The notes beneath the pieces are model-generated. The model had not been told where the DNA came from and ran no database searches. It saw only the letters and a list, made by a program, of their open reading frames with translations. Below, in pieces: positions 56,204 to 59,742 of a stretch of DNA of 64,000 bases. A program made the translations under genes and the position numbers. The stretch's first letter is position 1. Each line of letters begins with the position of its first letter. Source of the DNA: Rhodococcoides kroppenstedtii (GTDB lineage Bacteria; Actinomycetota; Actinomycetes; Mycobacteriales; Mycobacteriaceae). Where the stretch lies: assembly GCF_900111805.1 (NCBI RefSeq), contig NZ_FOJN01000009.1, positions 62,001 through 126,000 of the forward strand, read 5' to 3'.

Positions 56204-57724
<1,521 letters not shown>

Positions 57725-57756: not shown

Positions 57757-58179
57757 CTAGTGCGCGACCAGCGCACGCCCCTCACGGAGGCAGTGCCGCG
57801 CCCGGCCGACGACGCCCAGCAGACCGGCCGCGCGAATGGCCTGGTACCCGCCGACGACGTCCGTCGCCCGGTGCAGTCCGAGCTCCTGCAGCGCGGCGGC
57901 GGCGAGCGAGGAGGTGTATCCCTCCGAGCACATTACGATCCACTCGACGTCGTGATCGACCGCGGCCGCGAGGCGTGCGGAGGACAGCGGGTCGAGGCGC
58001 CACTCGAGCACGTTGCGTTCGACGGCGAGCGCACCGGGCATCGTGCCCTCCACCGCCCGCTGCGCCTGCGGCCTGATGTCCACGAGGATCGCCCCGCGAG
58101 CGACGGCGGCGGGCAGGTCCGCCGCCGGCATGCGGCGGTAGGTCGCGCGGGCCCGGTCGAGCATCTCGTCGATGGTCAT
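57757..58179 (-). CDS. single-domain rhodanese-like protein
   Basis: A 140-residue rhodanese domain (sulfurtransferase fold). LVDIRP near the N-terminus matches the LIDVR entry motif, and the active-site loop is MCSEGYTSSLAA with the persulfide Cys at 84. It should carry sulfane sulfur. The start is either GTG 58182 or ATG 58179; both overlap the stop of the cysteine dioxygenase gene (GTGATGA), so the two are coupled. A role in handling sulfur from cysteine breakdown is inferred from this pairing. Confidence 0.88.
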   Translation of the reverse strand: MTIDEMLDRARATYRRMPAADLPAAVARGAILVDIRPQAQRAVEGTMPGALAVERNVLEWRLDPLSSARLAAAVDHDVEWIVMCSEGYTSSLAAAALQELGLHRATDVVGGYQAIRAAGLLGVVGRARHCLREGRALVAH

Positions 58180-58799
58180 CACGCGCTGCCCTCCGGGACG
58201 TCGGTGAGTTCGGTGCGCGTGCGACGCAGCCCGCCGCCGGCTCCGATGTCGTAATACGACATTGCCGTGAGCGGCGGTGAGTAGGCGTGCACGCTGAGGG
58301 TCGGCGTGGACTGCGCTGCGGCGGACCCGTCGTCCGTCGGCGCGTGCGTCACGTCGTGGACCCAGCCGAGCGGGAACGACGCCTGGTCACCGGCACGAAG
58401 AAGCCTGTGCTGCAACGTGGTTCCGTTCCAGCGGTACTCGCTCAGCGCGCCGGAGAGCACGGTCAACGCACCCAGCGACCCGGCATGATCGTGCAGTTCG
58501 GTCGACCGATCGGGGACCCAGCTGATGAGCCAGAGGTCGACGATGTCGTCGGAATGGATGCGCGCGGACCACCGCTCGTCCAGCGGGAAGCCGCCCGGGG
58601 GCAGCAACGCGTCGTGACGACCGTCGAGCACGTCGGCGGCGCTCTGATCGGTCAGTCGGAGCAGGTCCGCCGGCCGCAGTGACGTGGGTGCCAGCGTGGT
58701 CGGCACTGCCTCGGGGGCGAAAGCGCCGGGCCGGGACACGGCCGAGCGGGAGGAGGGACGACGAGAAGGGGTGCGCGTACGCGCAGGGAGGGACAGCAC
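58179..58799 (-). CDS. cysteine dioxygenase type I
   Basis: A 206-residue cupin iron enzyme that oxidises cysteine to cysteine sulfinate. The three iron-ligand histidines lie in ELHDHAGSLGALTVLSG (two) and GWVHDVTHA (one); SVHAYSPPLTAMSYYD is the conserved substrate-side strand. An N-terminal tail of about 35 residues is Arg/Ser-rich and may be disordered. The GTG start has GGAG 8 bases upstream. A rhodanese gene overlaps its stop, and a 12-codon Cys-rich upstream ORF lies 43 bases before the start, suggesting control by cysteine supply. Confidence 0.9.
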   Translation of the reverse strand: MLSLPARTRTPSRRPSSRSAVSRPGAFAPEAVPTTLAPTSLRPADLLRLTDQSAADVLDGRHDALLPPGGFPLDERWSARIHSDDIVDLWLISWVPDRSTELHDHAGSLGALTVLSGALSEYRWNGTTLQHRLLRAGDQASFPLGWVHDVTHAPTDDGSAAAQSTPTLSVHAYSPPLTAMSYYDIGAGGGLRRTRTELTDVPEGSA

Positions 58800-58842
58800 A
58801 GCGGAACTCCAGGGAGATGTGACGACGAGTCGGGGGCAGGCG

Positions 58843-58881
58843 TCAGCCCCGACAACACTCCCGGTTCGCGCAGTAGGTCAC
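58843..58881 (-). CDS. 12-codon Cys-containing leader ORF before the cysteine dioxygenase gene
   Basis: GTG at 58881 opens a frame encoding VTYCANRECCRG and then TGA. Three of twelve codons are Cys, two of them adjacent near the end. It begins 7 bases after a CACACT hexamer and has no ribosome-binding site, so it is probably leaderless. The layout equals the polycysteine leader ORFs of mycobacteria, which sense charged tRNA-Cys by ribosome stalling and change expression of downstream sulfur genes. Here the downstream genes encode cysteine dioxygenase and rhodanese. Translation is not proven. Confidence 0.65.
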   Translation of the reverse strand: MTYCANRECCRG

Positions 58882-58947
58882 GGCGACCAGTGTGGCAGAG
58901 ACCCGACGAGTCCGCCACCCCTCCCGATCCGACACCGACCGACTCGA

Positions 58948-59742
58948 TCAGCGACGCCGGGCGCGGTTCCGCTCGTGCACCAGCTGCAGTCCGTCCAACG
59001 TGAGGGTCGGCTCGACCCGATCGATCACCGTCGATTCCGGTGCCACGAGCGACGCACTGTCTCCCGTCGCCACCACGACCACGCCGGGTGACTCCATCCC
59101 CGGCACCTCGGCGCGAATTCGGGCGACCACTCCGTCCACCAGACCGGCGAATCCGATGACCGCACCGGACTGCATGGCTTCGACGGTGTTCTTGCCCAGC
59201 ACGTGTCGAGGACTGACCAGCTCCACCTTCCGAAGCGCGGCGGACCGCGACGCCAGCGCGTCCATCGAGATCTCGAGCCCCGGGGCGATGACGCCGCCCA
59301 GGAACTCACCCTTGCCGGAAACCACGTCCACACACGTCGAGGTGCCGAAATCGACCACGATGCAGGGGGTTCGGAACTTCTCGTACGCGGCCAGGCAGTT
59401 CACGATGCGGTCGGCCCCGACTTCCTTGGGGTTGTCGACCAGCAGCGGCACACCGGTACGCACACCGGGCTCGACGACCACCTGCGGGACGTGGGACCAG
59501 TAGCGCCCCAACATGGTTCGCATCTCGCGCAGCACCGACGGCACAGTCGACAGAGCGGCGACGGCGGTGATCCGGTCGACGTCCGGGCCCAGGAGACCGC
59601 GGAACGCGAGCGCGATCTCGTCCGCCGTCATCGCCGGATCCGTCCGAAGGCGGCGCTGGACCGTCAGGCTCGCATGGACACCGCTGCCGGTGAAGACGCC
59701 GAGGACCGTCGTGGTGTTCCGAACGTCGACGGCCAGCAACAT
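58948..59742 (-). CDS. coaX: type III pantothenate kinase
   Basis: A 264-residue kinase for the first step of CoA synthesis from pantothenate. The ASKHA fold shows [12 protein letters not shown] (phosphate 1), the [15 protein letters not shown] motif, and the phosphate-2 motif [13 protein letters not shown] with [15 protein letters not shown]. In Bacillus-type enzymes the first motif reads DIGNT; here it is DVRNT, as in mycobacterial CoaX, for which activity is disputed. The ATG overlaps the panD stop (ATGA), so panC-panD-coaX are probably one unit. Confidence 0.93.

Follow-up and report, generated by a model that had tools for sequence, protein, structure and literature searches.

A conserved Cys-Cys leader reading frame as a candidate cysteine-responsive attenuator ahead of a thiol dioxygenase-rhodanese operon in Rhodococcoides kroppenstedtii

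Why should a short reading frame with three cysteine codons, apparently suited to sensing cysteine supply, stand directly ahead of two genes that seem to consume cysteine? The question arises in Rhodococcoides kroppenstedtii (NCBI RefSeq assembly GCF_900111805.1, contig NZ_FOJN01000009.1, positions 62,001 to 126,000), in a stretch of 64,000 nucleotides (nt) referred to below as the window, where a 12-codon leader open reading frame (ORF) precedes a thiol dioxygenase gene and a rhodanese-fold gene on the minus strand. An earlier note on this DNA had taken the two genes to break down cysteine and had reasoned that the control would have to increase expression at high cysteine supply. Here we present an analysis of the locus and its counterparts in related genomes, according to which the leader ORF probably switches the operon on at cysteine shortage, and the likeliest role of the operon is to win back sulfur from a thiol, ergothioneine for example. 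To a cysteine-supply-sensing translational attenuator ahead of an operon for sulfur release from a thiol reserve we assign a probability of roughly 0.6.

The leader ORF (VTYCANRECCRG and a stop codon) is read on the minus strand from 58881 to 58843 as GTG ACC TAC TGC GCG AAC CGG GAG TGT TGT CGG GGC TGA, with Cys at codons 4, 9 and 10 (positions 58872-58870, 58857-58855 and 58854-58852). Its stop lies 43 nt before the GTG start (58799) of the dioxygenase gene (58179..58799, minus strand; PF05995), the Shine-Dalgarno (SD) sequence of which is GGAG at 58807..58810 (minus strand). The rhodanese-fold gene (57757..58182, minus strand; PF00581) shares 4 nt with the end of the dioxygenase gene. Both the three-Cys GTG ORF and the rhodanese partner are present as the earlier note described them. 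A -10-like hexamer, CACACT (58889..58894, minus strand), stands 7 nt upstream of the leader GTG; no sigma-70 consensus pair was found in a scan of 58700-59000, and Rfam gave no match up to E 5 in 58600-59100.

A search of 201 genomes of the family yielded the dioxygenase at E 1e-30 or better in 128 (the window's genome included), representing 22 genera. The upstream region was read in all 128 for a Cys-Cys leader, i.e., an ORF that has adjacent Cys codons and stops 25-75 nt upstream of a candidate start codon for the dioxygenase. As read from the sequence, such a leader occurs in 98 of the 128 regions (the window's included) and in 17 of the 22 genera, as compared with 8 of 1,280 dinucleotide-shuffled regions, which bears out the suspicion that the Cys content exceeds chance. 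The leader would be called into question if close relatives had lost its Cys codons; within the genus, the pair is retained in 15 of 15 sampled genomes (the window's own included). The peptide context of the pair differs among genera (ECCRG, NRMCCR, MCMCCR, CECCRP); because the surrounding peptide varies, the Cys-Cys pair and its position are taken as the conserved feature. A translated arrest peptide, or a small protein with a function of its own, in which ECCRG would count as peptide and not as Cys codons, could claim the retention of ECCRG across many genera, but this variation in the flanking residues, with only the pair and its position constant, makes it highly improbable.

For the structural comparison, 74 of the 98 leaders passed a filter (stop-to-start gap of 30-60 nt, SD present), 70 of them distinct; the 24 left out comprised 13 of genus g38, five of g37 (gaps mostly above 60 nt), four of g45 and one each of g44 and g24. 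The motif [TC]ANNNT stands exactly 7 nt before a possible leader start codon in 54 of the 70 leaders, and at any other spacing of 3-12 nt in at most 14. In genus g25, GTG or ATG is found at the same start position. The hexamer spacing and the GTG/ATG exchange fit a transcript that starts at the leader start codon, so that the leaderless start suspected behind CACACT is supported at the sequence level.

Regarding variants of the leader, the dioxygenase stands without a Cys-Cys leader in 14 of 14 genomes of genus g46 (e.g., L164, in which a rhodanese-like end upstream of the dioxygenase was judged by eye). All eight genomes of genus g34 (e.g., L119, L128, L136) have a one-Cys leader with Arg-Cys and two residues at its end, e.g., VIHHPTSRRCRS. 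In L109, a stop codon takes the place of the second leader Cys codon (MTTGRQEC, then stop). The Cys pair is encoded as TGT TGT in 66 of the 70 distinct leaders; in seven genes of the window's genome, by contrast, there are 13 TGC codons and two TGT codons. The records L006 (Kitasatospora arboriphila) and L007 (Williamsia muralis) are identical over 140 nt around the leader and have equal dioxygenase matches; one of the two is probably mislabelled or contaminated.

How such a leader might act on the dioxygenase gene is suggested by the folding of its RNA. From an alignment of 46 of the 70 leaders (nine genera, gaps of 38-44 nt), RNAalifold predicted a pairing of the leader ORF (typically GCAYGAG) with the dioxygenase start region (CTCRTGC), start codon included, and, as a second element, a local hairpin at the leader stop. 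In the minimum free energy (MFE) fold of the window leader, the long-range helix (58797..58875, minus strand) joins leader codons 3-6 to the end of the SD and the start codon of the dioxygenase gene (58807-58797), the start GUG being paired with the leader Tyr codon; five of seven pairs are retained in the register of the relatives' helix. When 20 nt of downstream sequence are added, the start codon pairs downstream instead. The local hairpin (58829..58853, minus strand) is formed by the second Cys-Arg-Gly codons (GUCGGGGC) with CCCCCGAC. A middle helix in the MFE fold (58812..58862, minus strand), leader GGGAG(UGU) with (ACA)CUCCC just 5' of the SD, was not predicted by RNAalifold from the 46 leaders, was added by hand, and has no double changes in the alignment.

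Double changes do occur in the relatives' version of the long-range helix and in the local hairpin (columns 51:67 change from A-U to G-C in 7 of the 46). Regarding the three helices together, the number of double-change cells was 26, against 11.0 (standard deviation 2.5) in shuffles, and the covariation score was 0.202 against 0.171, neither value being reached in any of 500 shuffles; helix versions slid out of register gave 2-16 double-change cells. Standard pairs filled 92.7% of 950 cells, versus 90.5% in shuffles. At its first position the start codon is paired as U-A in 24 leaders, as U-G in 11 and as C-G in eight, and is unpaired in three.

From this anatomy we infer stalling and a direction of control. 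The mRNA would begin at the leader GTG. With ample Cys-tRNA, the ribosome would pass through and the leader ORF would refold onto the dioxygenase SD and start codon, leaving translation weak; with Cys-tRNA short, the ribosome would wait at Cys9-Cys10, the hairpin would melt, and the freed start site would turn the operon on. The predicted mean cost of opening the start site in the 70 leaders is 14.6 kcal/mol in the free RNA and 7.2 kcal/mol with a ribosome at either Cys codon, as compared with 12.3 kcal/mol at the leader start and 8.6 kcal/mol at the leader stop. With a ribosome at the first Cys codon the cost drops in 65 of the 70 leaders (63, 65 and 60 under three choices of the 3' end), and a ribosome at Cys raises the mean unpaired probability of the start codon from 0.20-0.22 to 0.38-0.48. 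Real leaders are costlier to open than their shuffles (mean 14.56 versus 9.72) and exceed all 20 shuffles in 36 of the 70 cases. For the window leader the size of the fall varies with the 3' end (11.1 to 4.3, 8.3 to 6.6 and 10.1 to 5.2). The leader anatomy, with the opposing results weighed, predicts induction by cysteine shortage. The supposed need to raise expression at cysteine plenty is not supported: the conserved hairpin closes the dioxygenase start region without a ribosome and, judged by opening cost, is predicted to open when a ribosome stands at the Cys codons.

Several results weigh against this reading. The unpaired probability of the SD, tested before opening cost and start-codon accessibility, disagrees with the release predicted from opening cost: on stalling it shows a slight rise in just 8 of 37 leaders, and in the window it drops from 0.54 to 0.25. 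A ribosome at the leader stop also lowers the opening cost, as the mean of 8.6 kcal/mol indicates. The window leader, at 8.3 against a shuffle mean of 9.8, is equalled or exceeded by 14 of its 20 shuffles; leaders of g45, g30 and g23 are no costlier than shuffles, and those of g24 barely so. Neither the count of pairs that show double changes (5 versus 4.0) nor that of pair types (20 versus 20.4) is in excess, i.e., two of the five covariation measures are not above shuffles, and the shuffle control leaves relatedness in. Finally, the Cys-Cys pair is missing in 30 of the 128 genomes (14 of g46, eight of g34, four of g24 and one each of g22, g28, g33 and g45), and from every sampled genome in five of the 22 genera.

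Part of this would suit a reversed attenuator, the kind that the earlier note's reasoning calls for, in which the leader ORF must be finished for reinitiation at, or coupling to, the dioxygenase gene, and cysteine plenty raises expression. A ribosome at the leader stop opens the start site too, in 29 of 37 leaders the SD gains no unpaired probability from a ribosome at the Cys codons, and the stop-to-start gap is short and regular (38-49 nt in 65 of the 70 filtered leaders). We nevertheless judge it decidedly unlikely, as the mean opening cost peaks without a ribosome and is lowered most by a ribosome at the Cys codons, and the mycobacterial Cys leaders that Canestrari and colleagues are said to have described in 2020 reportedly work in the opposite way. 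Transcription attenuation, intrinsic or Rho-dependent, in place of translational masking draws on the strong local hairpin at the leader stop and on the proposal of Rho for mycobacterial cys leaders in PMC1262725. It is quite unlikely in turn, given that no intrinsic-terminator-like site was found in a scan of 58700-59000, and that the dioxygenase start codon lies within the conserved pairing, which transcription attenuation would not need.

Translational attenuation by cysteine supply, the preferred reading, leaves the question of what the operon does. The dioxygenase matches PF05995 with 39.6 bits (cut-off 23), and the known structure closest to it in sequence and fold is that of the ergothioneine dioxygenase of Thermocatellispora tengchongensis (PDB 8qfl-8qfr), with 32-33% identity; the residues mutated in that enzyme, H147 and Y149, align with H171 and Y173 of the window protein. 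H103, H105, H148, H171 and Y173 are unchanged in all 20 aligned dioxygenases, and so is R76, which by sequence alignment only corresponds to an Arg of the ergothioneine dioxygenase. Alignments with the cysteine dioxygenases of rat and B. subtilis start downstream of the position of rat R60, which we take to be the substrate-binding Arg. In the rhodanese-fold protein, C85 and GYTSS are invariant in 17 of 17 aligned sequences, and its gene follows the dioxygenase gene in 24 of 24 loci from named records. The gene egtD is present in the window's genome and in 115 of the 128 dioxygenase genomes. ORF lists inspected by eye, without a family scan, gave no clear sulfur gene beyond the rhodanese gene among the neighbours in L024, L050, L051 and L054.

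The operon looks better suited to releasing sulfur from a reserve compound (ergothioneine, for example) than to destroying cysteine, and with ergothioneine dioxygenase as the nearest known structure the assumption that these genes break down cysteine becomes doubtful. For substrate and product we infer that the ergothioneine-dioxygenase-like enzyme and its rhodanese-fold partner would release sulfur from the thiol reserve, probably as sulfite, for the remaking of cysteine. Two points count on the other side: an identity of about 33% leaves the substrate of the window enzyme unfixed, and 13 of the 14 g46 genomes carry the dioxygenase without egtD. The same attenuator could instead control an ordinary cysteine dioxygenase that is induced at shortage for some other reason, e.g., sulfite or cysteine sulfinate made from protein-turnover cysteine. 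The PF05995 score above cut-off, the five residues invariant in all 20 sequences and the 13 genomes with the gene but without egtD agree with this. It is unlikely all the same, as both sequence and fold place the enzyme nearer to the ergothioneine dioxygenase, and consuming cysteine during cysteine shortage would seem self-defeating.

As to known systems, Canestrari and colleagues are said to have reported, in 2020, leaderless polycysteine short ORFs of mycobacteria that precede sulfur-metabolism operons, where a stalled ribosome lifts the masking of the start site by mRNA structure. Adjacent Cys codons close to the end of a short ORF recur here (codons 9-10), as does a putatively leaderless start (CACACT at 7 nt); the target differs, being a catabolic-looking thiol dioxygenase-rhodanese operon. 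Canestrari et al. 2020 is cited in PMC9094748, PMC13236596 and the reference list of PMC7790235. Conserved leaderless Cys-rich upstream ORFs also head operons of cysA2, Rv0485/Msmeg_0932 and nirA (PMC4633059); these targets are other than the window's, and the text of that paper contains neither 'dioxygenase' nor 'rhodanese'. Actinobacterial leader peptides with runs of Cys codons near the leader stop precede cys operons and cbs (PMC1262725), the word dioxygenase being absent from the text. Among titles and abstract openings of open-licence PMC papers, a weak search, no paper joining a cysteine or ergothioneine dioxygenase to a leader ORF was among the matches listed. As far as checked, the attenuator type is already known from mycobacteria and the controlled operon is the interesting part.

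The NCBIfam families Ms4527A, Ms4533A, Ms5788A and cis_reg_atten likewise consist of Cys-bearing leader peptides. Four longer in-frame dioxygenase leaders of relatives gave no match to NCBIfam leader families, and the window peptide, with 12 amino acids, is below the 20-amino-acid limit. At a cysH-type locus (PF01507) of the window's own genome (contig C21), a Cys-Ser-Cys leader, MTVVEIMLVARRHVDLARVCSCLGPIV, lies upstream of the first long gene, 7 nt after CAGAAT (L177:1685-1768, plus strand), and matches cis_reg_atten with 28.9 bits (cut-off 27), with Ms4527A and Ms5788A below their cut-offs. A second leader of 29 amino acids, ending in DCR, at the other end of the locus (L177:11477-11566, minus strand) matches leader_Ms4533A with 48 bits (cut-off 31). 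These two family-matching leaders place Cys leaders also at a sulfur-assimilation locus of this genome.

On either side of the dioxygenase-rhodanese pair in the window lie genes for a type III pantothenate kinase (58948-59742; PF03309) and for a class II tRNA synthetase (56204-57724; PF00152), the latter presumably lysS. The nearest named record is the dioxygenase of Rhodococcoides corynebacterioides, with 91% identity.

A wider idea, which we put forward tentatively and at somewhat less than even odds, is that ergothioneine serves as a sulfur reserve in many bacteria of the mycobacterial order, and that cysteine shortage, felt by ribosomes at a Cys-Cys leader whose RNA locks the start codon of the following gene, induces an ergothioneine dioxygenase together with a rhodanese-fold lyase, which would feed the ergothioneine sulfur back into cysteine synthesis. 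If the proposal is true, the sensor ORF and the start codon of the gene under its control, which covary, would make this leader a clean system in which to study control by ribosomes with no protein regulator involved. Ergothioneine or another thiol would then be a sulfur store on which actinobacteria draw when cysteine runs out, and an operon that would otherwise be wasteful of cysteine would be explained.
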